Assembly (NCBI RefSeq): GCF_028464065.1
Contig: NZ_CP116808.1
Location: forward strand, 434,001 to 498,000
DNA length: 64,000 nt
Direction: 5' to 3'
Source of the DNA: Saprospira sp. CCB-QB6
GTDB lineage: Bacteria; Bacteroidota; Bacteroidia; Chitinophagales; Saprospiraceae
Shown here piece after piece: positions 2,637-63,463 of this stretch. The notes beneath the pieces are model-generated. The model saw only the letters and a list, made by a program, of their open reading frames with translations, ran no database searches and had not been told where the DNA came from. Every line of letters begins with the position of its first letter. The first letter of the stretch is position 1. The position numbers were made by a program, and so were the translations under genes.

Positions 2637-2756
2637 GGGGCTGCCCCTCCCTTCGGTCGGGTCGGGCCATTCCGCAGCTCGCTGCTCGCTCGGCCCTGCG
2701 GCGGCAAAGCCGCCTTGGTCTGCCGCCTGCGGCGGCCCTGCTCCAGCCCCTCAGCC
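2637..2756 (+). repeat. Structured intergenic repeat, copy 1 (type B)
   Basis: Begins GGGGCTGCCCC after a T-rich stretch and ends CCCTCAGCC. It carries the conserved GCTCGCT-nnn-CGCTCGGCCCT block, then hairpin 2 (GGCGGCaaaGCCGCC), GGTCTG, and hairpin 3 (CCGCCtgcGGCGG). A further small hairpin and ATTGGACCAA follow. Confidence 0.9.
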
Positions 2757-2871
2757 TGCGGGCGCTTTGCGCCCTGTCCACCGCAAATTGGACCAAAAGG
2801 CAGGCTTAGCCTAAGAACTCAGCTAGTTTTTCAGTAGATTGCCTATTCTTCTGCCACAATCCCTTTTGTCT

Positions 2872-5538
2872 ATGACCCTAGTTTGCTACGCCAAAACCAC
2901 CAAAGATAAAATCCAACTCCAAAGAAAACCCTTTGCCTCTGGCGGAGAAGGCAGCTTACACCGCATCAAAAGCCCCACTCATTGGCGAGGTATGGTGGCC
3001 AAAATCTACCATCGCCCCAAACGAACAAAAGAGCGAGAAGAAAAGATCGCCCTCCTGATCAAACACCCCCCAGAAGAATTTCAAGCCGGCCAATGGCCTA
3101 GTTTTGTCTGGCCCCAAGATATTTTACTCAGCCAATCTGGACAGTTTCTAGGCTTTGTTATGCCTTTTGTCCAAGGCAAAAAATTAGAATTACTCTGCCT
3201 CCCCAAACTCCCCAAAAAGCTAAATGCAAATTGGCAACGTTTGGCATTGGACCAAAAAAATAGCCGCGACCTAAGACTTCGCATCGCCTTTAACCTTAGC
3301 CTGGCCATCTATCGAATGCACCAGCAAGATCGCTACGTCTTAGTCGACCTCAAACCCGAAAATGTAATCCTGCAGAGCAATGGCCAATTAGCTTTGGTAG
3401 ATATGGACTCTGTACAGGTCCATAAAAATGGCCAACTAAAATTTATGGCCCCTGTAGCCACCCCCGAATACTCCGCTCCAGAATATTACCAAAACCCTAA
3501 ACCTAACAGCTTTAAGAGTAGCTGGGATAGCTTTGCTTTAGCTGTTATTCTCTACAAACTTCTACTGGGTATTCATCCCTATGCAGCTTCTGCTTTGCCG
3601 CCCCATGACCAACTGGTAAGTTTACACCAAAAAATTGAGGCGGGTTTATTTGTCCATCATCCAGAAGCCAAAAGGTTATTTAAGATCATCCCCCCACCCC
3701 ATCAAGAATTTCTACAGCTATCTACTAGTCTGCAAACACTATTTATGCATAGCTTTGTAGAAGGCCATAGCCTGCCCGAACTGCGCCCCCTAGCCGAAGA
3801 ATGGTGCTGGGCCATACTCGAAGAGTTAAAAGACCCAGAACTCAAACAACGTTTTCAGCAAATGCTGCTGCAACAGGACCTGCAATTTAAGCGGCTACGC
3901 CGCCCCTCCGATATTTTGCCGCCCCTAGAACAACTAGAAAAAAAGTGGAGCGACTACCTTCCCCAAGACTATAAAATGGCCCTAGCTTGGCAAATGCCTC
4001 AACTACAATATCCCAAGTCTGTACAGCAAATCAATATACAGAGCAATATGGATAGCTGGGGAAATTTTATTCTGAGTATTATTGCCACTATTGTTACCGT
4101 AGCAGCTCTACTCAACAGCTTTCCAGCCATCTATCAATGGATGACAAGGGACCTACTTCAGTACCCCTTTTGGCAAATAATGCTCATCATCCAAGGCTTT
4201 TTTGCCTTCCCTATTCTTATTTTCCCTTTTACTTTACATGGCATTCACCTACTCATCAATCCCCAACGCCTCAAATGGAAAACCCTAAAAAAGAATGCTC
4301 AAGCTCAACAAAAAAAATTGGACCAATGGCATAAAAAGCTAGAAGAGGCAAAAACCAACTTGTTGCAAGTTCTAAAAACAGAACTTCCCAATTTCCAAAC
4401 GCTAGAAACAACAAGTAAGGCCATCAAGCAGAGTTATTTGGAGGGACTACAAAAACTAGACTCCGCCTTTGAGAAATTACTGGCCCAAGAACAAGAACAT
4501 AAAGCCTATATTTTGGCGCCCATTCTGACCCAACTCCAAAAAGAACTGCCTTTATTGAGCCCAGCTCATGACTTTAAGTCCGCCCTTGAGATTTTGCGCA
4601 AAGCTGAACAAGACCAACTCATTGACAACCAGCAAGAAGAATTGGGCCAAGATTTCCATCAGTTTAAAGCCATGGCCCAAAAAGAAAAGCGCCTCGCCTT
4701 TGAACGCCTTGCCACCGAAGAGAAACACTTCTTATCTTACATTCAAGAGCAACGAGAAGTATTGCAAGATCGCCAAAAGCAAGACATACAAGCCCAACAC
4801 GATAACCTCAGCCGATTCAATAACCTCAAAATAGGCCATAAGCAACATTTGCATTTAAGAGCTCGAGAAGGCCTAAGACTCATCCTTAAACTTAATAAGG
4901 CCGGTTTTCACTCTATGAGCCAACTAAAGGAAATCAATATCCCCAAAGCTCAACTGATCTTTAAGGATGGACGTACACTTAATTTATCCGACTTTAGCCA
5001 GTCTGATGTTAATATGGCCCACCGTTTCATGATCTGGTTACAGGCTAGCTATAAAGAAGAGCGACTGTTTCTGCAAGAACTACAGCGCATTGATAAATTT
5101 TACGCCAAAGAACGTGAGAAATTAGAAGAAAAAACCCGCTTAGCACGCCCTAAATTTGCCAAAAGAAAAGCCGACTTACAACAGCAGGCCCGAGATGCCT
5201 TTTTGGCCCAAAAAGCCCAAAATATACGTCAAGCTTATCAGCAAAAGCGACAACAAGTCCGCCAAGCCCAGCAGATGTTTAATAAAAAAATGCAAGCTAT
5301 TCTTGATGAAAGAAGCCCCCTCTACCAAACACTGGAAGAAGAGGCTAAACAACTACATAAAAAACATAAGGAGCAACTCGATAATCTCAAGCATCTACAT
5401 CAACATAAATTACACCTTCAACTCCAAGAAGAAAAGCATCTCTTACGACCTTGGGCCCCAAATAATTTAACCGAAATTGAAACTATTCTGCAAAAAAAGG
5501 CCAAATTAGAACAACAATTATCCGCCTATAAAAGCTAG
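2872..5538 (+). CDS. Membrane-anchored protein kinase-like protein with coiled coil and degenerate HhH-like segment
   Basis: A protein of 888 aa, paralogous to the kinase at 47698. Start: the ATG at 2872 places the GGEG glycine loop at residues 24-27 and the VAIK-type lysine (VAKIY) at K44, exactly as in the paralogue. The frame extends to a TTG at 2839, but that is less likely. The catalytic loop reads VDLKPEN (D159, K161, N164), and DFG is replaced by DMD (177-179). The activation-segment end is TPEYSAPEYY. Two hydrophobic helices (about 394-420 and 433-461) are followed by a long charged coiled coil. A segment near 670-697 (LNKAGFHSMSQLKEI) resembles the helix-hairpin-helix end of the COG4248 kinase-HhH family. 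Kinase activity is inferred. It stands alone, without the vWA and PP2C partners of its paralogue. Its stop overlaps the convergent lipoprotein stop by 4 bp. Confidence 0.8.
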   Translation: MTLVCYAKTTKDKIQLQRKPFASGGEGSLHRIKSPTHWRGMVAKIYHRPKRTKEREEKIALLIKHPPEEFQAGQWPSFVWPQDILLSQSGQFLGFVMPFVQGKKLELLCLPKLPKKLNANWQRLALDQKNSRDLRLRIAFNLSLAIYRMHQQDRYVLVDLKPENVILQSNGQLALVDMDSVQVHKNGQLKFMAPVATPEYSAPEYYQNPKPNSFKSSWDSFALAVILYKLLLGIHPYAASALPPHDQLVSLHQKIEAGLFVHHPEAKRLFKIIPPPHQEFLQLSTSLQTLFMHSFVEGHSLPELRPLAEEWCWAILEELKDPELKQRFQQMLLQQDLQFKRLRRPSDILPPLEQLEKKWSDYLPQDYKMALAWQMPQLQYPKSVQQINIQSNMDSWGNFILSIIATIVTVAALLNSFPAIYQWMTRDLLQYPFWQIMLIIQGFFAFPILIFPFTLHGIHLLINPQRLKWKTLKKNAQAQQKKLDQWHKKLEEAKTNLLQVLKTELPNFQTLETTSKAIKQSYLEGLQKLDSAFEKLLAQEQEHKAYILAPILTQLQKELPLLSPAHDFKSALEILRKAEQDQLIDNQQEELGQDFHQFKAMAQKEKRLAFERLATEEKHFLSYIQEQREVLQDRQKQDIQAQHDNLSRFNNLKIGHKQHLHLRAREGLRLILKLNKAGFHSMSQLKEINIPKAQLIFKDGRTLNLSDFSQSDVNMAHRFMIWLQASYKEERLFLQELQRIDKFYAKEREKLEEKTRLARPKFAKRKADLQQQARDAFLAQKAQNIRQAYQQKRQQVRQAQQMFNKKMQAILDERSPLYQTLEEEAKQLHKKHKEQLDNLKHLHQHKLHLQLQEEKHLLRPWAPNNLTEIETILQKKAKLEQQLSAYKS

Positions 5539-7045: not shown

Positions 7046-7157
7046 GGGGCCTGCCGCCTAGGGCGGCCGGGCTATTCGCTGGCTCGCTGTTCGCTCGGCC
7101 CTGCGGCCTGACGGCCTTGGTCTGCGGCTGCGCCGCACCAGCTTCTATCCCTAGGCC
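7046..7157 (+). repeat. Structured intergenic repeat, copy 2
   Basis: Starts GGGGCCTGCCGCC and ends CCCTAGGCC. Stem 1 is CCGCCctaGGGCGG, stem 2 GGCCtgacGGCC, and stem 3 GCGGCtgcGCCGC. The GGGG end lies 33 bp upstream of the lipoprotein ATG (7013). The other end is 18 bp from the stop of the 7175-7792 gene. Confidence 0.88.
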
Positions 7158-7174
7158 GAAGCTGGGCTTGCCAA

Positions 7175-7918: not shown

Positions 7919-8033
7919 GGCCTAGCGATGTGGAAGGGTGGCCACAGGCCAGACCGAGCCAGCTTTGCTGGCGAAGGGCCGAGCGAATAGCGAGCCCTGC
8001 AACGTAGCGCCGCAGCAAAGCTGCGGAGGCCCC
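7919..8033 (-). repeat. Structured intergenic repeat, copy 3 (type A)
   Basis: On the plus strand it runs GGCCTAGCGATGTG to GGAGGCCCC, then A-rich DNA. In the common orientation stem 1 is CCGCAGCtttGCTGCGG, stem 2 GCCAGCaaaGCTGGC and stem 3 GGCCtgtGGCC. Confidence 0.9.
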
Positions 8034-12931: not shown

Positions 12932-13054
12932 GGGGCCTCCGCTTCGGCCTTTGGCCTAGCGGCGCTACGCTTTGGGGCTCGCTGCTCGCTCGGCCCTTCG
13001 GCGCTTTCAGCGCCTTGGTCTGGCCTAACGGCCACCCCGCCGCATCGCTAGGCC
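12932..13054 (+). repeat. Structured intergenic repeat, copy 4 (type A)
   Basis: GGGGCCTCC start and CATCGCTAGGCC end. Stem 2 is GGCGCtttcaGCGCC and stem 3 GGCCtaacGGCC. A further hairpin (GCGGCGGCtttGCCGCC) and ATTGGACCAAT follow the core. Confidence 0.9.
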
Positions 13055-13225: not shown

Positions 13226-13358
13226 GGCTGAGGGGCTGTAGCAGGGCCGCCGAAGGCGGCAGACCAAAGGCTTTTGAAGCGAAGCGAAAAAGCCTGCAGG
13301 GCCGAGCGAGCAGCGAGCTGCGCAATGGCCCGACCCGACCGTAGGGAGGGGCAGCCCC
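13226..13358 (-). repeat. Structured intergenic repeat, copy 5 (type B)
   Basis: Runs GGCTGAGGGGCTG to GGGCAGCCCC on the plus strand. Stem 3 is CCGCCttcGGCGG. Stem 2 is unusual, AGGCTTTT pairing with AAAAGCCT around a 12-nt loop, showing an AT-rich stem in place of the usual GC stem. Confidence 0.9.
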
Positions 13359-25322: not shown

Positions 25323-25436
25323 GGGGCCTCCCGCCTTCGGCGGGCGCTCCCTTACAGGGCTCGCTCTTCGCTCGGCCCTTCGCCAGCAAGCTGGCTCGGT
25401 CTGGCCCTAAGGGCCACCCTTTCAGGCAGCTAGGCC
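25323..25436 (+). repeat. Structured intergenic repeat, copy 6 (type A)
   Basis: The GGGGCCTCC end lies 44 bp upstream of the giant protein 1 ATG. Stem 1 is CCCGCCttcGGCGGG, stem 2 GCCAGCaaGCTGGC, and stem 3 GGCCCtaaGGGCC. It ends CAGCTAGGCC. Confidence 0.9.
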
Positions 25437-25569: not shown

Positions 25570-25689
25570 GGCCTAGCGATGGTAGGCAGTGCGGCAAAGC
25601 CGCAGACCCAGCAAAAACTTGTTTTTTGCGCAGGGCCGAGCGAACAGCGAGCTGCCGGACGTAGCGCCGCAGCTTTGCTGCGGAGGCCC
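25570..25689 (-). repeat. Structured intergenic repeat, copy 7 (type A)
   Basis: GGCCTAGCGATGG to GGAGGCCC on the plus strand. Stem 1 is CCGCAGCaaaGCTGCGG and stem 3 GCGGCtttGCCGC. Stem 2 is AT-rich: GCAAAAA pairs with TTTTTGC, a complete replacement of the GC stem with pairing retained. Confidence 0.9.
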
Positions 25690-36585: not shown

Positions 36586-36721
36586 GGCCCAGCGCTGCGC
36601 AGCGGTGGCCGAAGGCCAGACCCAGGGCAAGCAAAGCGCAGCCCGCAGGGCCGAGCAGAGCTGCGAGCCGCGCAGCATAGCGGCGGCCGACCTAGCCAAA
36701 GGCTAGCCGGCCGCGGGCCCC
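36586..36721 (-). repeat. Structured intergenic repeat, copy 8 (divergent)
   Basis: GGCCCAGCGCTGCG to GGGCCCC on the plus strand. Stem 3 is GGCCttcGGCC. Stem 2 pairs imperfectly (GGGC/GCCC). The central block reads GAGCAGAGCTGCGAG instead of GAGCGAATAGCGAG. The GGCCGCGGGCCCC end is shared with a fragment at 39879. Confidence 0.8.
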
Positions 36722-36759: not shown

Positions 36760-38178
36760 CTATTTTTTAGAACCAAAACCTACTGGCATCTCTTCTACAA
36801 ATTCTTTGTTTTTTTCCTCCATCTCCTCACTGTTCAAGCCCTTGGGCATATAATCCTCACTCAAAAATCCCATCATTTTGGGCGTCTGAAAGCCATAGGT
36901 AAACTTGCGAACATTCTTAGCAATAAAGTCAAATAACTCCTGCACCGTAATGATGTAGTTCCCATCACTATCCGCATAACCTTTGAGCCCCATGATCAAG
37001 AAATAAGAAAATACTCCCTGCTCAAATTTTTTGGTCTCTAAAGAAATTTCCTCCGAGGCAGAAGATAAAATCATGGCCAAACCACCATCTACCCGCTTAA
37101 AACTCTCTTTATATTGCGCAATCACATCACGGCCCATGTTCATGTTGTTGGCAGGCGGCAACTCATTGCCATTGTCCCGATATTCCGCATAAGTGGCCAT
37201 CAAACTACCCGAGTGACAAGCATCCGCCAAAATCAATTTAAACTTGGCCTCACTGTCATTCAACATATTGGCCACTGCCGTATGATATAAGGTGTTGCTA
37301 CCATTGCGCTGATAATCTACAGGCAAAAAGCCCCCCTCTAAACCATGGCCCGCAAAATAAAATATAATGAGATCATTGCTGTCCGCCTGCTCATACAAAT
37401 CCCCCATGGTATTCAAGATGTTTTTGGCCGTAGCCTCCTCATCCAACAACAACTTAATCTGCTCATTGGGCAAAGCGCCCCCCTCTGGACTACGCAAAAA
37501 ACTATAAAATTTTCGCGCATCATCTATAGTATAGGTCAATTTGTCAAAGTCCTGATAATTGGCCACCCCAACAACTACTGCCCACATCTTAATCGGATTC
37601 TCTGTGCAACGCCCCTCTACCCAACGACCACTCAATTTGTGCCCATTCCGATAATAATGCGTGCCCTCTCCATCTGGCAAACCATTCTTCCAATCTCCCT
37701 CATATTTGCTGCCATCCGTATAAGTCAAGTTGCCCTTGCCCTCATATTTCCGATTGACAAAGTAGCCCTCATAAACTCGACCCTTATAATCCATCGATTT
37801 CCCATAACCCTGCTCACAATCGCCCTCCAAACACTCACTCGCTTTGCGAATCTTGGGATTGACCTCTACCAAAATATTGTCCTCCCAACGACCCGCCTTG
37901 ATATTCCCCTCAGGATCAACCAATACCCCCTCGCCATTATATAAACCACTCTTAAATCGCCCCTCAAAAAAGCCTCCCTTGACAAAAGAAAACTTTCCCA
38001 ATCCATCAAATTTCCCATTCTTAAATTCTCCCTCATAGGTCCCCTGAGGCATCTCCCCCAAAAACTTCCGAGCCCGACCAATCCCATTGTCACAGTTTCC
38101 ACTCAAACACTGTAGCTGCGCCTGCAACTGTATGGCCCCCATCATCAAAAGGAATAACCCCAAAATCTGCTTTTTCAT
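36760..38178 (-). CDS. Secreted MORN-repeat caspase-like (C14) protein
   Basis: A protein of 472 aa starting at the ATG at 38178, which begins the signal peptide MKKQILGLFLLMMGAIQLQA. The frame continues upstream only through repeat DNA. Residues 30-215 contain MORN-type repeats: GTYEGEFKNGKFDGLGKF, GGFFEGRFKSGLYNGEG, GRVYEGYFVNRKYEGKG and KYEGDWKNGLPDGEG. Residues 225-430 are a caspase/metacaspase p20-like domain, with catalytic His in FYFAGHG (about 276) and Cys in LADACHSG (about 320). A C-terminal segment (GYADSDGNYIITVQELFDF) looks like an EF-hand-type loop. A periplasmic or surface Lys/Arg-specific caspase-like protease is expected from the family; the substrate is unknown. It has a long AT-rich leader and then repeat copy 9. 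Confidence 0.85.
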   Translation of the reverse strand: MKKQILGLFLLMMGAIQLQAQLQCLSGNCDNGIGRARKFLGEMPQGTYEGEFKNGKFDGLGKFSFVKGGFFEGRFKSGLYNGEGVLVDPEGNIKAGRWEDNILVEVNPKIRKASECLEGDCEQGYGKSMDYKGRVYEGYFVNRKYEGKGNLTYTDGSKYEGDWKNGLPDGEGTHYYRNGHKLSGRWVEGRCTENPIKMWAVVVGVANYQDFDKLTYTIDDARKFYSFLRSPEGGALPNEQIKLLLDEEATAKNILNTMGDLYEQADSNDLIIFYFAGHGLEGGFLPVDYQRNGSNTLYHTAVANMLNDSEAKFKLILADACHSGSLMATYAEYRDNGNELPPANNMNMGRDVIAQYKESFKRVDGGLAMILSSASEEISLETKKFEQGVFSYFLIMGLKGYADSDGNYIITVQELFDFIAKNVRKFTYGFQTPKMMGFLSEDYMPKGLNSEEMEEKNKEFVEEMPVGFGSKK

Positions 38179-38266
38179 AATTATATGGTTTCTTATTAGT
38201 GAATGTTTTATACTACTAAACTGCAAATATTTATCCGTTTTCCCCTGCTGTTCTTCTTTTTTTTCA

Positions 38267-38385
38267 GGGGCCTCCGCTGCGGCTTCGCCTTGCGGCGCTA
38301 CGTTGCAGGGCTCGCTATTCGCTCGGCCCTTCAGCGCTGCGCGCTTTGGTCTGGCCTGAGGGCCACCCTTCCACATCGCTAGGCC
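38267..38385 (+). repeat. Structured intergenic repeat, copy 9 (type A)
   Basis: GGGGCCTCCGC to CATCGCTAGGCC. Stem 1 is nested (CCGC/GCGG around GGCttcGCC), stem 2 AGCGCtgcGCGCT, and stem 3 GGCCtgagGGCC. Confidence 0.9.
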
Positions 38386-41547: not shown

Positions 41548-42183
41548 CTATTCAATATACAGTTCTTTTTGCAAAGAGGCCATAAATAAGCGTTCTACTT
41601 CCTGTACATCGGGCGTCCAGCCCTCAAAGGAGACAACAGCTAGGCTATATAAATGTCTACCGATAACGATCAATCGTCCCGATAGCTGAAAGTCGGCCCC
41701 AGCTAAGCGAAAGTTGCGCGCTGGATAAATATCCTGATATAAAAAGCTTTCTTCTGTTTGCAAATCAATGCTATTGGCCTCTCGGCTACTGGCATCTAGG
41801 TCCATGATTAGATCTTGCAAGACCAGATCATAAAAGCGCTCTTTATCTTTCTGATAGTCTGCATAAGATTGCTCTTCTTTGAGGTCGGCTATGGTTAGTT
41901 GCAAGCTATAAGCTTTGGCCTCTAAGCGGTAGCGGGTTTTGCTTCGGCTCTTATTGCGCAATCGTCTAGGCTTTTTGGGAAAGCAGATGCTGTAGCCCTG
42001 GCCTAGGTCCTTTTTGTGCCAATCCTTGATTAAGGAATCAATGGGCAGACTATCTATGGGTTCGGCTGCAGGCAAAGGCAGGCTATCAGGCTCAAGCAAG
42101 GGTTGTTGCTCGACCAAAGGCGCAGGCTCTGATTGACAGGCCCAAAAGAAGGGCAGCAATAGGATGTAGATATATCGGGGCAT
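41548..42183 (-). CDS. Hypothetical lipoprotein, 211 aa
   Basis: Start: the ATG at 42183 gives MPRYIYILLLPFFWACQSE with lipobox FWAC. The open frame continues upstream through the 42-bp tandem repeat to about 42612, but a lipoprotein signal in mid-protein makes that extension unlikely. A Pro/Leu/Asp linker (20-50) is followed by a small domain with SICFPKKPRRLRN at its start and LYSLAVVSFEGWTPD near its end. This pattern recalls proteins that test whether a mutant or stress state affects a PsbP-like/TssT fold, but I do not name a family. No partner is evident. Confidence 0.7.
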   Translation of the reverse strand: MPRYIYILLLPFFWACQSEPAPLVEQQPLLEPDSLPLPAAEPIDSLPIDSLIKDWHKKDLGQGYSICFPKKPRRLRNKSRSKTRYRLEAKAYSLQLTIADLKEEQSYADYQKDKERFYDLVLQDLIMDLDASSREANSIDLQTEESFLYQDIYPARNFRLAGADFQLSGRLIVIGRHLYSLAVVSFEGWTPDVQEVERLFMASLQKELYIE

Positions 42184-42304
42184 CGCTTTTTGCGCAAAGG
42201 TACAAAGCCCCGCTTTAAAAATGAGCTTATTGAAGAGCTTATTTTCTGTCTGCGCTATAGACCGAAAGCGGGTAGCTAGCGCCGAAGCTGAAAGATGAAA
42301 ATTG

Positions 42305-42640
42305 TTTACAAATGCCATTTTACAAATCTCGAATAGCTTGCTCAACTTTACAAATGCCATTGCACAAATCCACAATAGCTTACCTAACTTTACAAATACC
42401 ATTTCGCAAATCCCTAATAGCTTACCCAACTTTACAAATGCCATTTCACAAATCCCTAATAGCTTACCCGACTTTACAAATGCCATTTTACAAATCCAAA
42501 ACAGCTTGCTCAACTTTACAAATGCCATTTTACAAATCCCCAATAGCTTACCCGACTTTACAAATGCCATTTCGCAAATCCCCAATAGCTTACCTAACTT
42601 TACAAATGCCATTGCACAAATCCCGAATAGCTCTTCTTCA
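42305..42640. repeat. Tandem array, 8 x 42 bp
   Basis: Eight head-to-tail units of exactly 42 bp. Each starts TTTACAAATGCCATT (one unit has ACC for GCC), then CAAATC and AATAGCTT (AACAGCTT in one). Two positions within the unit vary: after CCATT (TTAC, GCAC, CGC or CAC types) and after AGCTT (GCTCAAC, ACCTAAC, ACCCAAC or ACCCGAC). The last unit decays at its 3' end. The period is a multiple of three and both strands stay open. There are no unique spacers, so it is not CRISPR. Confidence 0.95.
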
Positions 42641-42697
42641 AATTATTTAGGAGGTTCTGCAGCCATGGCCGAAGGCCCTAGGCTAGAATATATAGCC

Positions 42698-42891: not shown

Positions 42892-43001
42892 GGCCTAGCG
42901 ATGTGCAGCAGTGGCCCAGGCCAGACCAAGGCGCGTAGCGCCGAAGGGCCGAGCGAATAGCGAGCTGCGAAACGTAGCGCCTGCCGCAGGCAGGAGGCCC
43001 C
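42892..43001 (-). repeat. Structured intergenic repeat, copy 10 (type A)
   Basis: GGCCTAGCGATGTG to GGAGGCCCC on the plus strand. Stem 1 is CCTGCCtgcGGCAGG, stem 2 GGCGCtacGCGCC, and stem 3 GGCCtgGGCC. Confidence 0.9.
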
Positions 43002-45628: not shown

Positions 45629-45748
45629 GGGGCCTCCGCCTCGCTGCGCTCGTCGGCGCTACGTTTCGCAGCTCGCTATTCGCTCGGCCCTGCGGCGCTT
45701 ACAGCGCCTTGGTCTGGCCTAAGGGCCACTGCTGCACATCGCTAGGCC
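45629..45748 (+). repeat. Structured intergenic repeat, copy 11 (type A)
   Basis: Begins GGGGCCTCCGCC after T7, immediately downstream of the response regulator stop. Stem 2 is GGCGCttacaGCGCC and stem 3 GGCCtaagGGCC. It ends CATCGCTAGGCC, then AATAGGACCAATT. Confidence 0.9.
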
Positions 45749-47524: not shown

Positions 47525-47645
47525 GGCTTAGGGATGGACAGCAGGGCCGCCGCAGGCGGCAGACCTAGCGGGCAAGGCCCGCGCAGGGCCGAGCGAGCAG
47601 CGAGCTGCGACACAGCCCGACCCGAGCGCAGCGAGGGGAAGCCCC
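47525..47645 (-). repeat. Structured intergenic repeat, copy 12 (type B)
   Basis: Lies between phosphatase and kinase genes of one presumed operon, 53 bp before the kinase ATG. Stem 2 is GCGGGCcttGCCCGC and stem 3 CCGCCtgcGGCGG. It ends GAAGCCCC followed by A-rich DNA. Confidence 0.9.
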
Positions 47646-50309: not shown

Positions 50310-50504
50310 GGGGCTGCCCCTTCCGCCGGGTTGAAACCCAGCGCAAAGCGGTATCGCTTTGCGAAGCGATACAAAATGAGGGTGGAAACCCTCATGAATT
50401 ATCGGGCGGGTCGGGCTGTGTCGCAGCTCGCTGATCGCTCGGCCCTGCGCCGCCTTTGGCGGCTGGGTCTGGCGCTTTGCGCCACTGCTGTCCATCCCTC
50501 AGCC
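50310..50504 (+). repeat. Structured intergenic repeat, copy 13 (type B, long); left arm of exact inverted repeat around xerD
   Basis: 195 bp, reading GGGGCTGCCCC to CCCTCAGCC. It carries an extra module with GGGTTGAAACCC, CGCTTTGCGAAGCG and GAGGGTGGAAACCCTC. Stem 2 is GCCGCCtttGGCGGC and stem 3 GGCGCtttGCGCC. By eye it is identical to the reverse complement of 51862-52056. Confidence 0.93.
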
Positions 50505-50755: not shown

Positions 50756-51667
50756 ATGCTAGATCTTTACCTACCAGGTTTTGAGGCTTTTTTGCAATTA
50801 GAAAAAGGCCTATCACCAGCCTCTTTGGCTGCCTATAAAAGTGATTTGAAGCAACTTAACCGCTACCTTAAATTCAATGGCCAGGCAGAGCAACTGGCCG
50901 AAATTGACAAGCATATCCTTCGTGCTTTTCTCAAAGAGCTGCAAGAGTTGGGTTTGGCCAACAGCAGCCAAGCTCGTATGCTCTCTTCTGTCAAAAGCTT
51001 TTTTGCCTATCTGCGTTTAGAGGGCCTGATAGAAAAGGACCCATCTGCCCTACTAGAGGCGCCTAAACAAAAGCGTAAATTACCCGAATACCTCAGCATT
51101 GATGAGGTGGACAAAATCTTTAATGCCATTGACCTTTCTCAGGCCCAAGGGCACCGCAATCGGGCCATGCTTGAGCTGCTTTATGCCTGTGGGCTACGGG
51201 CCAGCGAGCTTTGCGAGCTTAAACTATCGGGCCTTTTGCTAGAAATGGACCTTATTCGCCTTTGGGGGAAGGGCCAAAAAGAACGCATTGTCCCTATTGG
51301 TGAATCAGCTAAACAACAGCTACTTTTTTATTTGGACCAAAGGAAGCATCTAAAGATTGCCCCAAAATCAGAAGATATTGTCTTTTTAAATAGAAGAGGC
51401 AAACAGCTCTCTCGGCAAATGCTTTTCTTGATTGTCAAGAAAGCGGTAGCCGATGCGGGCATAGATAAAAACATTTCGCCCCATAGTTTTCGCCATAGTT
51501 TTGCTACGCATTTGGTAGAAGGCGGAGCAGATCTTCGTTTGGTCCAGCAACTCTTAGGACATGCTTCTATAACCACCACAGAGCTCTATAGCCAATTAGA
51601 TAATCGCTATTTGAAAGAGAGTTTGCGCTCATTTCATCCCGCTCAACATTATAAGCGAGAAGAGTAA
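50756..51667 (+). CDS. xerD: Tyrosine recombinase, XerC/XerD type
   Basis: A protein of 303 aa, the normal Xer length. The N-terminal SAM-like DNA-binding domain (about 1-95) starts LPGFEAFLQLEKGLSPASLA. The catalytic domain carries the full set: R148 (CGLRASELCEL), K172 or K175 in GKGQKERIVP, H243 and R246 (PHSFRHSFATHL), H269 (LGHASITTTELY) and nucleophile Y278. It resolves chromosome dimers at dif with FtsK in most bacteria. XerD is more likely than XerC from the similarity pattern, but this is not certain. It is unusual in being flanked by perfect 195-bp inverted repeats and being the only gene between them. Confidence 0.9.
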   Translation: MLDLYLPGFEAFLQLEKGLSPASLAAYKSDLKQLNRYLKFNGQAEQLAEIDKHILRAFLKELQELGLANSSQARMLSSVKSFFAYLRLEGLIEKDPSALLEAPKQKRKLPEYLSIDEVDKIFNAIDLSQAQGHRNRAMLELLYACGLRASELCELKLSGLLLEMDLIRLWGKGQKERIVPIGESAKQQLLFYLDQRKHLKIAPKSEDIVFLNRRGKQLSRQMLFLIVKKAVADAGIDKNISPHSFRHSFATHLVEGGADLRLVQQLLGHASITTTELYSQLDNRYLKESLRSFHPAQHYKREE

Positions 51668-52063
51668 TTTCTGCGTTTTACAGGCCCGTTAGGGCCGCAG
51701 GCAATAGCCAAATTTAAACGCACTCACTTTTATAGTTTGCAGCAATTTCCCACTAGTCGGTCCTATTTTTCTCGGCCATAGCGAAGGCTATGCCCTTAAA
51801 AAATAGCTGGCCTAGCAGAAAATTCATAGCAAACTATGGCCAAAGCAGCGCAATTAAATCTGGCTGAGGGATGGACAGCAGTGGCGCAAAGCGCCAGACC
51901 CAGCCGCCAAAGGCGGCGCAGGGCCGAGCGATCAGCGAGCTGCGACACAGCCCGACCCGCCCGATAATTCATGAGGGTTTCCACCCTCATTTTGTATCGC
52001 TTCGCAAAGCGATACCGCTTTGCGCTGGGTTTCAACCCGGCGGAAGGGGCAGCCCCAAAACAA
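51668..52063. other. Intergenic region downstream of xerD
   Basis: No gene is supported. About 195 bp before the repeat contains small inverted words, for example ATAGTTTGC near 51732 and GCAAACTAT near 51829, and GGCCATAGC/GGCTATGCC around 51774-51794. Repeat copy 14 fills the rest. Confidence 0.6.
51862..52056 (-). repeat. Structured intergenic repeat, copy 14 (type B, long); right arm of exact inverted repeat around xerD
   Basis: 195 bp, the exact inverted counterpart of copy 13 by eye, including its extra GGGTTGAAACCC module. The GGGGC end lies 7 bp from the stop of the convergent subtilase gene. Confidence 0.93.
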
Positions 52064-54740: not shown

Positions 54741-55247
54741 TTAAATGCCCAACTTTGCTTTTACTTTTGCGGTAGCGTCAATGCCTCCTTCAGAGTACAT
54801 AATGAGCTTGATATCCATAATATAGCTATAGCCATTTTCGGCAGCTACATCGGTAAGGGCCTTATTAAACTGCTCATAGAGTGGTTTAACAAGATCCTGT
54901 TCTTTTTTGGCCAAAGAACGCTCTGCTTCTGCGCTTTTTTGCTGCAGACCTTGCTGCATTTGTTGCAGTTGTTCTTCCGCTTGTTTTTGTTGTGCAGGAG
55001 AAAGCAAACCTTTCTGTGCTTTTTCCATGGTGCTAGTATAAAAATCCTGGACCTTTTTGCTTTCAGCTTCTAGTTGCTTTTGCAAAATTTTGCCATAAGA
55101 TTCTACCTCTGCTTTTGCTCTTTTATAGGCGGGCATATTGGGAATAATCGCATCGCCATCTACATGAGCCATTTTTTGGGCCGACAATGGCGTAGCTGCT
55201 AAAAAGAGCAAGCAGGCCATTAGGCTAAAAAAAGAAGCAAATTTCAT
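54741..55247 (-). CDS. Skp/OmpH-family periplasmic chaperone, paralogue 3
   Basis: A protein of 168 aa. Signal peptide MKFASFFSLMACLLFLAATP is followed by a short beta strand (MAHVDGDAIIPNMPAYKRA). A long charged coiled coil (about 45-120) and a returning C-terminal strand (YSYIMDIKLIMYSEGG) complete the Skp fold. Skp trimers hold unfolded outer-membrane proteins in transit to BamA. It is closely similar to the gene 24 bp upstream (same PNMP-YKRAKAEVESY and KAKLGI end), so it is a recent duplicate. Confidence 0.9.
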   Translation of the reverse strand: MKFASFFSLMACLLFLAATPLSAQKMAHVDGDAIIPNMPAYKRAKAEVESYGKILQKQLEAESKKVQDFYTSTMEKAQKGLLSPAQQKQAEEQLQQMQQGLQQKSAEAERSLAKKEQDLVKPLYEQFNKALTDVAAENGYSYIMDIKLIMYSEGGIDATAKVKAKLGI

Positions 55248-55271
55248 AATTCTGATTGTTTTGGGGTGAAA

Positions 55272-55787
55272 TTAAATGCCGAGCTTGGCTTTTAGTTTGG
55301 CTGTGGCATCAGTGCCACCTTGGTGATAAAGCAACATTTTTTTGTCCAAAATGTAAGCATAACCATTATCAGTAGCCACTTCTTTGAGTTTAGCCTCAAA
55401 TTTTTCATATAGGGGCTTAGTGAGGTCTTGCTCTTTGCGTACCAAATCCTCATCGGCTTTTAGGGCCTGTTTTTGCAAATCTTCTTGCATTTTGGCCAAT
55501 TTCTGCTCGGCTTCTTTTTGTTGCAAAGGAGTCATTTGACCCGCTTGAACTTTAGCCATGACATCAGCATAATACTGCTGCATAGCAGCTTGCTTGCCCT
55601 CTAGTTGTTTTTCCAAAATCTTGCGATAAGATTCTACCTCGGCTTTGGCTCTTTTATATTCGGGCATATTGGGAATGATGACATCAGCATCTACGTAGGC
55701 AATTTTTTGCTGGCCGTAGCTCACTGAACTAAAGGCCATAAAAGTAAGCAACATCAAAATGCTGCTGAGCTGCATAAGCTTTTTCAT
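55272..55787 (-). CDS. Skp/OmpH-family periplasmic chaperone, paralogue 2
   Basis: A protein of 171 aa. Signal peptide to about residue 25 (SSVSYGQ), then IAYVDADVIIPNMPEYKRA, coiled coil, and the C-terminal strand YAYILDKKMLLYHQGG ending KLKAKLGI. Same architecture and near-same length as its two neighbours. It lies between them on the same strand with gaps of 24 and 74 bp, so the three are probably one operon. Confidence 0.9.
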   Translation of the reverse strand: MKKLMQLSSILMLLTFMAFSSVSYGQQKIAYVDADVIIPNMPEYKRAKAEVESYRKILEKQLEGKQAAMQQYYADVMAKVQAGQMTPLQQKEAEQKLAKMQEDLQKQALKADEDLVRKEQDLTKPLYEKFEAKLKEVATDNGYAYILDKKMLLYHQGGTDATAKLKAKLGI

Positions 55788-56405: not shown

Positions 56406-56526
56406 GGGGCTGCCCCGCCCTGCGGGCGGGTCGGGCTGTTTCGCAGCTCGCTATTCGCTCGGCCCTGCAGCGGCAAAGCCGCTTTGGTCTGCCGCCTTTG
56501 GCGGCCCTGCTGTCCATCCCTCAGCC
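56406..56526 (+). repeat. Structured intergenic repeat, copy 15 (type B)
   Basis: GGGGCTGCCCC to CCCTCAGCC. Stem 1 is CCCGCCctgcGGGCGGG, stem 2 AGCGGCaaaGCCGCT, and stem 3 CCGCCtttGGCGG. Its GGGG end is 35 bp upstream of the ompH ATG. Confidence 0.92.
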
Positions 56527-56670: not shown

Positions 56671-56782
56671 GGCCTAGCGATGTGGAGCAGTGGCCGCAGG
56701 CCAGACCGAGCCAGCTTGCTGGCGAAGGGCCGAGCGAATAGCGAGCTGCGCAACGTAGCGCCCGCCGAAGGCGGGAGGCCCC
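56671..56782 (-). repeat. Structured intergenic repeat, copy 16 (type A)
   Basis: GGCCTAGCGATGTG to GGAGGCCCC on the plus strand. Stem 1 is CCCGCCttcGGCGGG, stem 2 GCCAGCaaGCTGGC, and stem 3 GGCCtgcGGCC. Confidence 0.92.
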
Positions 56783-59032: not shown

Positions 59033-61219
59033 CTACTCTTCCTCTGGCTGCGCCATAATCATCTCAATCTGTATTTTTCTTTGGCCCGCAGCCTCTACAC
59101 TATAAATAGAGTTGCGAGGATCGTTAATATCATCGCTAACGCCAGCGGGCACCTCCGTTTCACCAATAGAAAGCTCTACAAATTTGAGCTGCCCAGAGCG
59201 CAAATAAGGCTGAAAGGCCCCGTTTTGAAATTGCTCCATTTCATTGCGCATACTCGAAATCCGTCTTTTGGCCAAGTTAATATTATAAGCCGAAGAAGAA
59301 CGGGGACTACAATAGCCTCTCAAGTGAAACTCTACGGCTTGCCCAGACTCCAAAAGAGTGAGCAACTGCCCCAAAAAATGCTGTAAACGGGCATACTCGC
59401 CCGCCACTTCCTGCTCAAAAAACTTAGCTACTCTAGCTTTGGCCCGTTGCTGCACTTCTACCCCATCGTATTGGGCCGAAAACTCCTCCTCATATTGCGC
59501 TTGTAGTTGCAAATAAGCTTGGTAGGATTCTGTATAGCTCATTTTTGTAGTAGTGGCATAAGTTTGTTTGTCTGGACTATCATTGTGGAAGTACAAACTA
59601 ATGGGCAGTTTCTCGAGTAAATTGGCTATGCTAGGCGCTTCTTCAACAACTTCTGTGGGCAAACTGTCTAGCACTTCAGGCTCGATTACTGGCGGATCAA
59701 CAGGATCCACAACGGCCACAGGAGGCGTTAAACTACTATCTTTTTTGGGCGCTTCTGGAACTGCCGCTGGGGCTTCTGGCTCCAATTCTATCCCCGTCAA
59801 TACTGGATCTTGGGCCAAAAGGCTATCCAAAGGACTCAATTCTGGCTCTACAATCAAGTCCCCAGGCTCAATCTCCACCGGCAAGGTCAAGGCATATATA
59901 TCATTGCAACAAGACTCTCCTGTCAAGATTTTAGAGCCAGGCCGATTAGAAGAAAAATAACCAAAGGTGTCTAGCTCTGGCGCAATGTAAAAGTATAAGT
60001 CATTGGCCGCAGAATTGAGCGGCACGCCCACATTTTGAGGGGCCGACCAACTATCTGCCTTTCGTTTGGCCTTAAAAATATCATAGCCCCCCAAACCCAA
60101 ATGCCAAGTAGAGCTAAAATAAAGCGTTTGCGTTTTGGCATGATAAAAAGGCGTGGCCTCATTTCCTTTAGTATTGATTTCAGGCCCCAAATTAAAGGGT
60201 TTTCCATACTGATTCTCCCCCAAAACTTCTACGCACCAAATATCCAAGCCCCCAAATCCCCCTTTGCGATCAGAAGCAAAAAAGAGCAAACTTTTATTTT
60301 GTAAGCTATCAAAACTATGATTAGGATGAGTCGTTGTATACCCCCTTGACGCATTCACTGATTTGGGCAGAGCCTCTGGCTTGCCCCAAGCATTGCCTTT
60401 TTTCGGCACTCTATAAATCTCACATTCCAATTCATTCTCTGGATTCCGCTCGCAAAGCGTATAATATAACCACTGCCCATCTGCACTAAGCGCCGAATTA
60501 CCCACACTGGTATATTTCCGATTGAGACCAGGCGCAAAACCAGCATCTCCTGCTCCACGATCTCTAGAACGCAAAATCTTACCATACAAATATTGCTTGG
60601 TCGAAGCCTTGGCACTCATCCTACGCTTAGCATCTTGCTCAAAACGCAAAGCCGAAAAATAAAGCTCATTACCAACCAAATGTGGCGAAAAATCAGAATA
60701 AGCCGTATTCACTTTTTCCCCCAAAGAAATCACTTCTACCCCTTCTATCGGCTTTTTGTAAATCTCTTCCGCAAATTTACAAGCTGCCAACTCATGCTTG
60801 GCCCGCTCCTGCAACAATTGCAATTCTTTCCCCTTAACCAGCTTAGCCAAAAAAGCCTCAAATTCTACAACAGCCTCCGAGTATTTAGCATTGTGTTTCA
60901 AGGTATACGCATAGTAGAAGTCCATACTCGGAAAAGCCTCCCGCTCCTCTCCCATCCGACTCAATTTGCGGTAATAAGACTCGGCCTTGCCAAAATTAAA
61001 ACTCTGCCGACAGGCCTCTGCATAGCCCCAATAAGCCTCGGCCTGCTTAGATTTCGACTGCCCCTGAAATGCCTCTTCCTTAAAGGCCTGCTCATAAGCT
61101 TCTACCGCCCCATAAAAATCGCCTCGATTCAATAGCTTTTTGGCAGTTTTCAATTCTTTTTGGCCCAATACGGCCCAACTCAACAGTAAAAATGGTAATA
61201 GGATAAATAGTTGTTTCAT
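59033..61219 (-). CDS. TPR-propeller-OmpA outer-membrane-associated protein (PorE-like architecture)
   Basis: A protein of 728 aa with a signal peptide ending in AVLGQ. TPR-like helices at about 20-155 (KKLLNRGDFYGAVEAYEQAF, FNFGKAESYYRKL). A PD40/WD40-like beta-propeller at about 170-440 has repeated motifs LSADGQWLYYTLC, FFASDRKGGFGGLDIW, LYFSSTWHLGLGGYDIFKA and GYFSSNRPGS. A Pro/Glu-rich linker follows. The OmpA-like peptidoglycan-binding end (about 600-728) has FHLRGYCSPRSSSAYNINLA and KRRISSM. T9SS component PorE has this kind of layout, so a T9SS or envelope-anchoring role is possible; the exact orthology is not proven. The ATG lies 20 bp from the end of repeat copy 17. Confidence 0.85.
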   Translation of the reverse strand: MKQLFILLPFLLLSWAVLGQKELKTAKKLLNRGDFYGAVEAYEQAFKEEAFQGQSKSKQAEAYWGYAEACRQSFNFGKAESYYRKLSRMGEEREAFPSMDFYYAYTLKHNAKYSEAVVEFEAFLAKLVKGKELQLLQERAKHELAACKFAEEIYKKPIEGVEVISLGEKVNTAYSDFSPHLVGNELYFSALRFEQDAKRRMSAKASTKQYLYGKILRSRDRGAGDAGFAPGLNRKYTSVGNSALSADGQWLYYTLCERNPENELECEIYRVPKKGNAWGKPEALPKSVNASRGYTTTHPNHSFDSLQNKSLLFFASDRKGGFGGLDIWCVEVLGENQYGKPFNLGPEINTKGNEATPFYHAKTQTLYFSSTWHLGLGGYDIFKAKRKADSWSAPQNVGVPLNSAANDLYFYIAPELDTFGYFSSNRPGSKILTGESCCNDIYALTLPVEIEPGDLIVEPELSPLDSLLAQDPVLTGIELEPEAPAAVPEAPKKDSSLTPPVAVVDPVDPPVIEPEVLDSLPTEVVEEAPSIANLLEKLPISLYFHNDSPDKQTYATTTKMSYTESYQAYLQLQAQYEEEFSAQYDGVEVQQRAKARVAKFFEQEVAGEYARLQHFLGQLLTLLESGQAVEFHLRGYCSPRSSSAYNINLAKRRISSMRNEMEQFQNGAFQPYLRSGQLKFVELSIGETEVPAGVSDDINDPRNSIYSVEAAGQRKIQIEMIMAQPEEE

Positions 61220-61238
61220 AGGGTTCTGTTTTTATTTT

Positions 61239-61352
61239 GGGGCCTCCCGCCTGCGGCGGGCGCTACGTTTCGCAGCTCGCTATTCGCTCGGCCCTGCGCG
61301 GGCTGCGCCCGCTGGGTCTGGCCTAACGGCCACTGCTGCACATCGCTAGGCC
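61239..61352 (+). repeat. Structured intergenic repeat, copy 17 (type A)
   Basis: GGGGCCTCC to CATCGCTAGGCC. Stem 1 is CCCGCCtgcGGCGGG, stem 2 GCGGGCtgcGCCCGC, and stem 3 GGCCtaacGGCC. It fits exactly between two same-strand genes, 20 bp from one start and 8 bp from the other stop. Confidence 0.93.
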
Positions 61353-61360
61353 AAGCAAAG

Positions 61361-62194
61361 CTAAACCAAAAAGTCGACCCATGGCATTCGTTGCAGCCAC
61401 TGGTCCAATTTTTTGAGCGGCGTGTTTCTACTTTCTAAAATTTGCAGCCGATCTAGCCGCTCAAAACTCGCTGGCAATTCCTCCAACTTCGGATTATAAG
61501 AAAGATCTAAATGCGTCAGTGAGTAAAGAAGACCTATATCCGCTGGCAATTGCCTCAATTGGGTACCACTCAACTCCAGCTTACGCAGCTGCCCAAACTG
61601 CCCATCTGCAAAAAGAGAAAGCTCCCGCAAAGGGTTTCGACTCAAGTTGAGCATCCCAAAATCCTCGGCCTGAAAAAAACTAAAGGAAACTTCCTCCAAC
61701 TCATTATCAAAAAGCTGCAAATTACGCAAGGCCCGAAACCCCTCGGCCCTTTTAGGCAAGGTTTTTATCTTATTTACCCCCAAAAACAACTGCTGCAAAT
61801 GAGGCAAAGCCCCCAAAAAACTAGGAAATGCCTCTAATCGATTCGTATTCAGATTGATGCTGTGCAAATAAGGCAATTCTCCCAACTCCTGTGGCAAAGT
61901 CTCCAACTGATTTCCAGAAAGGTCCAATTGCTCCAAAGCCCTAAACTGCCCAATCTCTTTGGGCAACTCTACTAACTTTCGATTAGATAAGTTGAGGAAA
62001 GGACGCTGCAATAAAGCCCAAAGATCTTCCTTACTCATTTCTGCTGGCGGCTCCGCCCTTGGCCAAAGCATATAATATGGCGCCAAAAGCTCCCGCAAAG
62101 GCACAGACTGCCCCTCCGCCAAACTAAAGGCTAACTCAATATTGGCCATATCGGCACTGCCTATTAAAGCTCTAAGTGCTCCTAAAATATTCAA
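61361..62194 (-). CDS. Leucine-rich repeat protein, 277 aa
   Basis: A short helical N-terminal segment (ALRALIGSADMANIELAFSL) is followed from about residue 65 by nine or so LRRs of 21-23 residues, for example LEQLDLSGNQLETLPQELGE and LRKLELSGTQLRQLPADIGL. There is no signal peptide, so it is probably cytoplasmic and a protein-binding scaffold. Start: the only starts are TTG at 62194 and ATG at 62149. The helix before the ATG is conserved in style with other bacterial LRR proteins (inference), so TTG is preferred. It could be cotranscribed with the downstream OmpA-type gene, across repeat copy 17. Confidence 0.75.
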   Translation of the reverse strand: MNILGALRALIGSADMANIELAFSLAEGQSVPLRELLAPYYMLWPRAEPPAEMSKEDLWALLQRPFLNLSNRKLVELPKEIGQFRALEQLDLSGNQLETLPQELGELPYLHSINLNTNRLEAFPSFLGALPHLQQLFLGVNKIKTLPKRAEGFRALRNLQLFDNELEEVSFSFFQAEDFGMLNLSRNPLRELSLFADGQFGQLRKLELSGTQLRQLPADIGLLYSLTHLDLSYNPKLEELPASFERLDRLQILESRNTPLKKLDQWLQRMPWVDFLV

Positions 62195-62422
62195 AATATC
62201 TATCGACTGCTTATGTTAAGATAAATAACGCCTTGGAATAATTTTTGATTGGCGAGAGCAAATTGCAAGGAGACGAGTCCCAATAAACAAAAGTTGGAAT
62301 TGCTTTTGTTTTTAACCAAGTTCGGTCCCCTTGACTCCCCCTACTAACTAAACAATTCAAGTCACTATACCCCCAAAAGACAAACTAGCGTTTTCAGAAC
62401 TTCCTACAACTACTTTATTAGC
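62195..62422. other. Divergent spacer between LRR gene and lolA
   Basis: 228 bp of ordinary intergenic DNA. I see no TAnnTTTG box at proper spacing and no repeat. Confidence 0.5.
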
Positions 62423-63103
62423 ATGAGAACAATTAAATTGCTTTTCGCTTTTTGCCTAATGATGACATTCGGCCTAAATAGCCTGCAAGCCCAAACGCCT
62501 TTCTTTAAAAAGGCCCTAGCCAATGTGGAAAAATCAGACCCAGCCGCCAAAAAGGTTCTGGAAAAACTGAAAAAAAAGTACACTCAATATAATGCAATTT
62601 ATGCAGAATATGAGTTGCTTATTGATAACCGTGAAACTCAAGAACGCCAACAAGGCCAAATTACCCAAGAAGGCGATAAGTTTCACGTTAATAATAATGG
62701 CAACGAAATATATTGCGATGGCAGCACGCTCTGGATGTACATGAAAAATAATAATGAGCTCCAAATCAATGATTATGAGCCCGAAGATGAAGACATGATG
62801 TCTCCCTCTAAAATTATGAAGATCTATGAGGCCGAAGATGAATTTTTCTACGCCCTCACCCAAGAAAGAGGCGATATCTGCGAAATCGAATTCAAACCCC
62901 ATGACAAAGATGCCGATTTCTTTAAAATTAGAGCCACAATTGACCGTGCTAAACCAATGGTTAATGAAATTAAAGTTTTTGCCAAGGACGGTACTATCTA
63001 CACCCTAGATATTAAGGTCCTTAAAGCCGCCCAACCCAAAGCCAGCGATTTTGTCTTTGACAAAACAAAATATCCTGGCATCAGAGAAGTGGATATGCGT
63101 TAA
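62423..63103 (+). CDS. lolA: LolA-like periplasmic lipoprotein carrier
   Basis: A protein of 226 aa. Signal peptide MRTIKLLFAFCLMMTFGLNS, cleaved near LQAQ. The LolA fold is recognisable: KKYTQYNAIYAEYELLIDN, QQGQITQEGDKFHV, IYCDGSTLWMYMKNNNELQI, PSKIMKIYEAEDEFFY and FDKTKYPGIREVDMR at the end. LolA carries lipoproteins across the periplasm, and several lipoproteins are encoded nearby. It is monocistronic, with a strong terminator just after. Confidence 0.9.
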   Translation: MRTIKLLFAFCLMMTFGLNSLQAQTPFFKKALANVEKSDPAAKKVLEKLKKKYTQYNAIYAEYELLIDNRETQERQQGQITQEGDKFHVNNNGNEIYCDGSTLWMYMKNNNELQINDYEPEDEDMMSPSKIMKIYEAEDEFFYALTQERGDICEIEFKPHDKDADFFKIRATIDRAKPMVNEIKVFAKDGTIYTLDIKVLKAAQPKASDFVFDKTKYPGIREVDMR

Positions 63104-63122
63104 TTTCGCCTTCCTTTTCCTC

Positions 63123-63159
63123 AAAAAGCCTAGCTGTTTAATCAACAGCTAGGCTTTTT
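63123..63159 (+). terminator. Rho-independent terminator of lolA
   Basis: AAAAAGCCTAGCTGTT-taatc-AACAGCTAGGCTTTTT, a perfect 16-bp stem ending in T5, 20 bp past the stop. Confidence 0.92.
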
Positions 63160-63267
63160 GTTTTCTTAAAACCCATGAAGAACAAACCTTTTTTATATAG
63201 AGATTTTATCTTTGGATCAATTCACCCAAAAGTTTAGTTGAAATTTTGAGTAGGCTAATTCAGCAAT

Positions 63268-63463
63268 GGCTGAGGGATGGATAGCAGTGGCCCGAAGGGC
63301 CAGACCCAGCCGCCATTGGCGGCGCAGGGCCGAGCAGACCTGCGAGCTGCGACACAGCCCGACCCGCCCGATAGTTCATGAGGGTTTCAACCCTCATTTT
63401 GTATAGCTTCGCAAAGCGATACCGCTTTGCGCTGGGTTTCAACCCGACGGAAGGGGCAGCCCC
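63268..63463 (-). repeat. Structured intergenic repeat, copy 18 (type B, long)
   Basis: 196 bp, close relative of copies 13 and 14 with the same extra GGGTTGAAACCC module. Stem 3 changes from GGCGCtttGCGCC to GGCCCttcGGGCC, both sides altered together. Stem 2 keeps its stem and changes its loop (GCCGCCaatGGCGGC). The central block reads GAGCAGACCTGCGAG. Confidence 0.93.

Follow-up and report, generated by a model that had tools for sequence, protein, structure and literature searches.

Folded intergenic repeats of Saprospira belong to a family that forms a miniature inverted-repeat transposable element in sister genera

The 64,000-nt window of Saprospira sp. CCB-QB6 analysed here (contig NZ_CP116808.1, positions 434,001 to 498,000) contains a family of repeats whose stems change from copy to copy while remaining paired, raising the question of what kind of element they are and whether their fold is kept as RNA or as DNA. 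An earlier note on the window had described about 18 copies between positions 2637 and 63463, with alternative stems 2 and 3, two types of end (A and B) and a T-rich 5′ side, all of which was borne out. The core GCTCGCTnnnCGCTCGGCCCT has 16 exact matches in the window (0.05 expected from shuffles), and two further copies, at 36667 and 63346 on the reverse strand, carry the variant core CTCGCAGnTCTGCTCGGCCC, giving 18 copies, nine on each strand, with outermost edges at 2637 and 63463. Copies measure 110–196 nt with corrected edges, the 3′ edges of five of the 18 (at 2637 and 56406, forward, and 13238, 36596 and 47538, reverse) having been read from the sequence where automatic placement fell 10–13 bases short. 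Mechanically called open reading frames (ORFs) overlap some copies, which have coding room for at most about 65 codons each.

The core recurs in two sister genera, where inverted ends of about 20 bp, with target duplications of 8–9 bp, enclose it. The end GGGYGYRAACCARAWTGTCG of genome G125, which we assign to Phaeodactylibacter from flanks that resemble those of P. luteus, has 472 matches as compared with one in the control. In 30 of these G125 loci and 16 further loci, we obtained 21 units of the Phaeodactylibacter type (ends GGGCGYRAACCARAWTGTCG) that have an end on either side, G125 contributing 16 and P. luteus 5. An 8-bp duplication, allowing one mismatch, directly adjoins 16 of the 21 units (12 and 4, respectively), as compared with 0.75 on average and at most 5 in 1000 shuffles. 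A narrower end search gave four units, all with the duplication, yet shuffles also reached four and the looser search was used. With their ends, units are as a rule up to 230 bp long, although one has 384. In genome G018, the unit extends outward into the ends GGGTGcATTTCATTTTGTCG and CGACATTTTGAAATGCACCC, and a direct repeat of at least 7 nt occurs near the ends in 10 of 39 copies (shuffled mean 1.4, largest 5 in 200), in seven of these ten at or near the edge of the end (e.g. TATTTCCAT and TCGAAAAAT). Inverted ends with target duplications define a miniature inverted-repeat transposable element (MITE) in the available text of two descriptions (PMC3049150, PMC10969869). Because both features bracket the same core in two sister genera, the repeat family is a MITE there. 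The earlier note had recognised no known family; this holds for Rfam, with no window match at gathering cut-offs and, at five other loci, seven weak hits (E up to 1) that fell short of the gathering level and involved microRNA and leader families, but the class of element is now recognisable from the sister genera.

Several results in Saprospira itself weigh against extending this conclusion. The G125 end has no match in the CCB-QB6 genome (G000) with up to two mismatches, and no target duplication was found at a consistent place (547 matches over all offsets, as compared with 440 in shuffles). Therefore, the mode of insertion of the Saprospira copies is inferred from their relatives. The 3′ flanks in G000 are enriched in GGACCAA (16 of 117 copies, 2.6 expected), perhaps a trace of other ends. 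An autonomous partner was not found either: all 29 end matches read, from 30 of 121 G018 loci, carry the repeat, and G125 was not searched for genes between ends. Among 186 ORFs from up to 22 loci of low-copy genomes, no neighbour protein recurs widely; two proteins are each common to three loci, two of which, for each protein, look like the same region. We nevertheless consider it probable that a fossil MITE ancestry, together with exchange in place and a fold at the DNA level, explains the repeats as a whole. They would descend from a gene-less Saprospiraceae MITE family of about 110–230 bp, with a conserved interior folding as single-stranded DNA, and would have been spread by a DDE-type transposase acting in trans.

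The conserved interior proved larger than the three covarying hairpins of the earlier note: the hairpins are real, and hairpins 2 and 3 covary, but three long-range helices had been missed, the closing helix P1, an imperfect P3, and P4, which flanks the core. From 5′ to 3′, the unit comprises a T-run, GG(GG), a P1 arm, hairpin 1, a 15-base block, the core (CTCGCTnnTCGCTCGGCCC or CTCGCAGnTCTGCTCGGCCC), hairpin 2, GGTCTG, hairpin 3, a P4 arm, CATCGCT or CATCCCT, and the second P1 arm; the 15-base block consists of CGCTACGTTTC plus a P4 arm in type A or CGGGCTGTGTC plus a P4 arm in type B. P1 occurs as GGCCT/AGGCC, GGCTG/CAGCC and GGCTT/AAGCC, and P4 as GCAG/CTGC, GGGG/CCCC, AGGG/CCCT and GTGG/CCAC. 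We examined pairing in 436 copies from four genomes, dropping 127 without a recognised 3′ end and, for P1, 28 more without a recognised 5′ end. Of the copies left, 269 of 281 form P1, as compared with a shuffled mean of 123.8, and 286 of 309 form P4 (129.4); none of 2000 shuffles reached either value. P4 pairing holds within type A (159/169) and within type B (127/140). RNAalifold recovered unaided P1, P4, hairpins 2 and 3, and part of P3. Across genera, P1 often varies together with its partner, as judged by eye (GCATC/GATGC, GCGTC/GACGC, GCGTG/CACGC, GCCCT/AGGGC, GGACT/AGTCC and GGACC/GGTCC). One subtype, at the G000 counterpart of position 241493 of the WHT chunk, carries extra inserted sequence at two points, the core loop and the 15-base block.

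A covariation analysis gave a divided answer. Among 41 copies chosen for diversity, 90.0% of cells are paired (69.3% in P3), 209 cells are changed on both sides (shuffled mean 77.8), and the covariation score is 0.390 as compared with 0.133 in shuffles, no shuffle in 500 reaching either value and slid versions of the alignment scoring at most 0.137; these shuffles allow for neither relatedness nor block exchange. Set against this, two of the five measures fail to beat the shuffles: pairs with two-sided change number 16, a figure that 83 of 500 shuffles also attain (mean 14.6), while the 22 further pair types are fewer than the shuffled 27.6. A P1 mismatch is also retained in several relatives, such as GGCCT with AGTCC in L312 to L314. 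P1, P4 and hairpins 2 and 3 covary, in a pattern of few pair types that are strictly matched.

The earlier note had left the choice between a functional RNA and a DNA cruciform, and the composition of the pairs favours DNA. In distinct examples of hairpin 2, the 833 cells comprise 801 Watson-Crick, one G-T, 20 A-C and 11 other pairs, and the 444 cells of hairpin 3 are all Watson-Crick, although the hairpin finder tolerates one mismatch and so leans to Watson-Crick pairs. P4, in 284 copies, has 1096 Watson-Crick, four G-T, four A-C and 32 other cells. In contrast, 14 tRNAs from the same data have 23 G-U among 316 pairs (7.3%). The A-C cells come mostly from one TC/TC internal loop, equivalent to GA/GA on the complementary strand, and tandem G-A pairs are stable. 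Loops point to the same strand. Read on the complementary strand, triloops are of the GNA kind in 49 of 69 cases in hairpin 3, 41 of 79 in hairpin 2, 30 of 32 in G018 and 11 of 19 in other genera, and tetraloops are GNNA in all 12 cases from P. luteus (none of them GNRA), 7 of 12 in hairpin 3 and 4 of 11 in hairpin 2, whereas the given strand shows zero or one such loop in the interior sets. DNA mini-hairpins with GNA or GNNA loops are extraordinarily stable, according to the available text of PMC4686876. With DNA energies, the complementary strand is the more stable one in 110 of 112 copies, those from Saprospira being a random 70. Two observations go the other way: the preference is weak in hairpin 1, with 44 GNA among 149 triloops in Saprospira and zero to two in the other sets, and RNA energies likewise favour the complementary strand (90 of 112 copies), which leaves room for an RNA transcribed from it.

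Gene context bears on the same choice. For 117 parsed copies, out of 152 in 498 kb of G000, the overlap with genes called by a simple caller of our own was 4.0%. Among the gaps between genes, copies were present in 17 of the 56 that are convergent, 66 of the 256 that are tandem and 17 of the 56 that are divergent; counting only gaps of at least 110 nt (30, 140 and 49, respectively), convergent gaps are somewhat more often occupied. In tandem gaps, copies face the 3′ end of a gene 38 times and the 5′ end 38 times, and the median distance to a gene is 53 nt on the 5′ side and 160 nt on the 3′ side. An mRNA 3′ element or terminator was considered and rejected, as the gene context does not fit. 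As to replication, neither strand predominates among the copies of 21 stretches, a count not broken down by replichore. A structured RNA made from many sites, either a small RNA or an mRNA 3′ element whose pairing is kept by selection at the RNA level, would account for the extensive covariation and for those copies that directly follow a hairpin plus T-run. However, G-U pairs are almost absent, GNRA and UNCG loops are rare among interior loops, gaps of all three kinds are occupied with no orientation preference in tandem ones, and Rfam gives no match in the window, and we give this explanation a slim chance. Because pairs are nearly purely Watson-Crick, the loops are of the GNA/GNNA kind on the complementary strand and orientation is independent of gene direction, the fold is most likely kept as single-stranded DNA of the complementary strand, and not as RNA.

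Within Saprospira, the repeats hold their places. All seven window copies between 45.6 and 61.3 kb are matched in S. grandis DSM 2844, Lewin and WHT, with order and strand kept and at nearly the same place. Sites were compared in 498 kb from G000 and in some 419 kb from each of WHT and Lewin. A copy was scored as present when a core with up to three substitutions, in either orientation, lay no more than 200 nt from the gap, a rule that may over-count. Among mapped copies, 49 of 51 were present from G000 to WHT, 53 of 57 from G000 to Lewin, 98 of 105 from WHT to Lewin, 92 of 95 from Lewin to WHT, 48 of 56 from WHT to G000 and 47 of 54 from Lewin to G000, with 101, 95, 12, 15, 61 and 56 copies, respectively, unmapped. 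No clean empty site was seen among the absences flagged in these comparisons, which, among those listed, included degraded or interrupted copies, sites differing by several hundred further bases, a false match inside a gene, and a pair lost by internal deletion. In a first set of flagged absences, those aligned were mostly variants missed by the pattern, with one false gene match and one pair lost by internal deletion in Lewin, and two could not be aligned. The best candidate for an empty site, between WHT and Lewin, was discarded, as it looked like recombination between another direct repeat. At 403747 and 403956 of G000 contig C1, Lewin lost the interior of a tail-to-tail pair, a short palindrome remaining between T-run and A-run, as by deletion across a hairpin.

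Sequence at these shared sites changes in whole blocks. The 90 orthologous pairs between WHT and Lewin have a mean flank identity of 96.1% (aligned stretches of at least 100 nt), and the two strains are identical in the hairpin 2 block in 34 of 64 cases, in the hairpin 3 block plus tail in 27 of 64, in the P4 arm in 68 of 90 and in end type in 62 of 66. Of 60 differing hairpin 2 alleles, 34 are also present elsewhere among the sampled sites. Of 249 distinct interior blocks, 14, mostly 70–86 nt long, recur at sites not recognised as orthologous. The core variant CTCGCA makes up 44 of 152 copies in G000, 55 of 117 in WHT and 67 of 110 in Lewin. In our reading, these changes in place amount to moderately strong concerted evolution, and the wholesale replacement of stems within Saprospira looks in large part like exchange of blocks between copies. 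Two points temper this. When WHT is compared with Lewin, the nearest 50-nt flanks have diverged as well, to mean identities of 0.88 and 0.90 (0.85 for hairpin 2), so that the interior is not changing much faster by identity and the contrast lies in whole-block change. Also, just 14 of the 249 blocks recur, with G000 orthologs not collapsed and some sites lying in duplicated regions. For about a tenth of the genome, the comparison shows a family held at shared sites and evolving in concert.

P4 illustrates how pairing survives such change. In 64 orthologous pairs, two-sided change with pairing kept was found in 18 and one-sided change in two. Two-sided change needs no further cause where the whole block is exchanged; in two cases, however (WHT chunk positions 279348 and 255956), hairpins 2 and 3 between the arms are unchanged and one core base differs, a pattern that one simple conversion tract would not explain. 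We propose that gene conversion through the conserved blocks may let copies overwrite one another, and that the arms may stay matched by two-strand repair or by selection on the complementary-strand DNA hairpin. The earlier note had taken compensatory change as a sign of selection on structure; pairing is indeed kept through change, but where blocks seem to be exchanged between copies, covariation counts too many compensatory events as independent. A functional RNA is usually proved by compensatory base changes, whereas strong covariation may here stem from block exchange and pairing at the DNA level, making this family a warning for covariation screens. Its copies also provide natural replicates by the hundred, at known positions in several strains, for measuring the copying, repair and conversion of hairpin DNA in bacteria.

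The sites could instead now serve a host function of folded DNA, in chromosome structure or replication, having been recruited from a MITE and being selected site by site. In favour of this, conserved blocks are 0.91–0.97 identical between G000 and WHT while the 50-nt flanks drop to 0.66–0.72, sites are largely kept across strains, and both arms differ in 18 of the 20 pairs with a changed P4. Nevertheless, exchange between copies can alone explain the uniformity of the blocks, degraded and disrupted copies exist, and G003 and G004, of the same genus by label (63% and 90% complete, respectively), lack the core, making a host function unlikely. Equally doubtful to us is a stronger version of our reading, that in Saprospira a MITE turned into a genome-wide set of several hundred fixed sites of folded single-strand DNA whose arms are rewritten together, in a structure-templated or conversion-driven manner, with fold, strand and place outlasting sequence. 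If true, a DNA fold would be inherited as a shape, its sequence being renewed even between strains with about 96% identity in their aligned flanks.

Most copies are single, but neighbours less than 450 nt apart are all arranged tail to tail (18/18 in G000, 8/8 in WHT and 8/8 in Lewin, at sites that are partly the same). This arrangement, the DNA-type fold and a long persistence like that of REPIN populations (PMC8049555, from its available text) recall repeats of the REPIN/BIME type, which a RAYT (Y1) transposase mobilises as single-stranded DNA, with the tail-to-tail pair as the doublet. The Y1 transposase was rejected as a driver, as its genes and the repeat are distributed differently: no Y1 match was obtained in G018, which carries the repeat, whereas G003, G004 and G007 show the reverse, and the core occurs at two of 12 Y1 loci, with a background expectation in G000 of about one per 3.3 kb. 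In addition, the unit measures 110–230 bp and the sister genera have inverted ends with target duplications, which to our knowledge are not features of REP sequences. We therefore hold a REPIN/BIME origin to be improbable, and read the tail-to-tail pairs as two copies, each beside a T-rich gene border.

The G000 genome (4.24 Mb, two contigs) has 781 exact cores, 397 forward and 384 reverse, as compared with none for the core read backwards, and its small contig C2 also carries copies among the matches listed. Allowing one mismatch, the core pattern matches 52 of 398 sampled Saprospiraceae genomes, G000 included, with 808 matches in G000, 621 in G125, 522, 476 and 460 in the three S. grandis strains, 413 in G064 and 185 in G018; genomes with one copy perhaps reflect chance, as the control also gives single matches. 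G003 and G004 have no core match. A covariance model, for which no more than 12 candidates were scored in any genome, has matches in 35 of 298 genomes, G000 included, 32 within the family and three in one other family of the order, finding the same core and helices across the family. Named carriers among the matches listed include S. grandis Lewin and DSM 2844, Phaeodactylibacter luteus and metagenome-assembled genomes of Saprospiraceae, and single matches in Natrinema, actinobacterial and acidobacterial records are probably due to chance. We found no published description of the Saprospira family in titles and the beginnings of abstracts, a search to which the subscription literature was mostly external.

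As far as the available text of the cited papers goes, known repeats resemble the family in part. QMITE2-type bacterial MITEs (PMC10969869) are alike in being small, gene-less and intergenic, with inverted ends, direct repeats and stable secondary structure, having repeats of 7–9 bp, ends of 23–29 bp and a core of 113–145 bp. Unlike them, the Saprospiraceae repeat has a conserved interior with long-range covarying helices, and in Saprospira no such ends were found, while its hairpin blocks are replaced at sites that stay fixed. REPINs and BIMEs with RAYT (PMC3116915, PMC8049555) are likewise abundant extragenic palindromes with inverted pairs, a hairpin with common compensatory changes and long persistence, and differ from our repeat in its larger multi-helix unit, its sister-genus inverted ends and target duplications, and the lack of a link to Y1 genes. 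They bear a GTAG or CGTC tag at one end (PMC3733652); the ends of the Saprospira repeat seen here read GG...CC. Pneumococcal BOX and RUP (PMC3049150) share folding, past proliferation, slow present insertion and ends that pair within the fold, BOX also being modular, but differ in sequence and lineage; the terms 'compensatory' and 'gene conversion' are absent from the main text of that paper, as available. MITEs as a kind are already known, and what appears new is a fossil MITE family evolving by structure-preserving exchange.

The ERIC/IRU elements of enterobacteria, palindromic intergenic MITE-like repeats with 127-bp units, are similar in kind and different in sequence, and we know of no block exchange in them. 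We presume a further resemblance to the integron attC site, with its bottom-strand fold, integrase and cassettes.

Individual window copies differ in end type and hairpins. Exact core matches define 2637..2756 (forward, type B-like end, 3′ edge from sequence), 7046..7157 (forward, ends GGCCT/AGGCC with CCC), 7919..8033 (reverse, type A, after a hairpin plus T-run), 38267..38385 (forward, type A, overlapping the listed ORF 36760–38376) and 42892..43001 (reverse, type A), as well as the left partners of two tail-to-tail pairs, 12932..13054 (forward, type A) and 25323..25436 (forward, type A-like). Their right partners are, respectively, 13226..13358 (reverse, type B-like, 3′ edge from sequence), whose hairpin 2 is AT-rich, and 25570..25689 (reverse, type A, exact core match), with a GCAAAAA/TTTTTGC hairpin 2. 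The copies with variant cores are 36586..36721 (reverse, core CTCGCAGCTCTGCTC, ends GGCCC/GGGCC, 3′ edge from sequence) and 63268..63463 (reverse, type B, core CTCGCAGGTCTGCTC, long hairpin 1, from sequence reading and edge placement).

The seven sites common to the three S. grandis strains begin with 45629..45748 (forward, type A, core match and strain comparison) and 47525..47645 (reverse, type B with a CTAAGCC end, 3′ edge from sequence). They continue with 50310..50504 (forward, type B, hairpin 1 long and branched) and 51862..52056 (reverse, type B, long hairpin 1), both from core match and strain comparison, and with a third tail-to-tail pair formed by 56406..56526 (forward, type B, 3′ edge from sequence) and 56671..56782 (reverse, type A, core match). 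At the last, 61239..61352 (forward, type A, core match), four genomes have four different forms of hairpin 2.

A gene for a XerC/XerD-like tyrosine recombinase (Phage_integrase) at 50756–51667 is flanked by two near-identical inverted type B copies. The segment 50403–51702, which contains it, is inverted between these copies in WHT only, and not in Lewin or DSM 2844, according to match coordinates, as recombination between the copies would do. Next to the type B copy, a second repeat occupies 51694–51861, and both together match dozens of places in three relatives. Elsewhere in the window, two very long adjacent ORFs of 4044 and 3471 amino acids fill 13432–36189, and a caspase-domain protein with MORN repeats is encoded at 36760–38376, its listed start being overlapped by a repeat copy. 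A seven-copy repeat with 42-nt spacing (42263–42674) lies mostly within ORF 41548–42612. Finally, at 55069–55709, a 110-nt stretch is repeated at 85% identity in neighbouring ORFs, the second of which (55272–55787) is OmpH-like.

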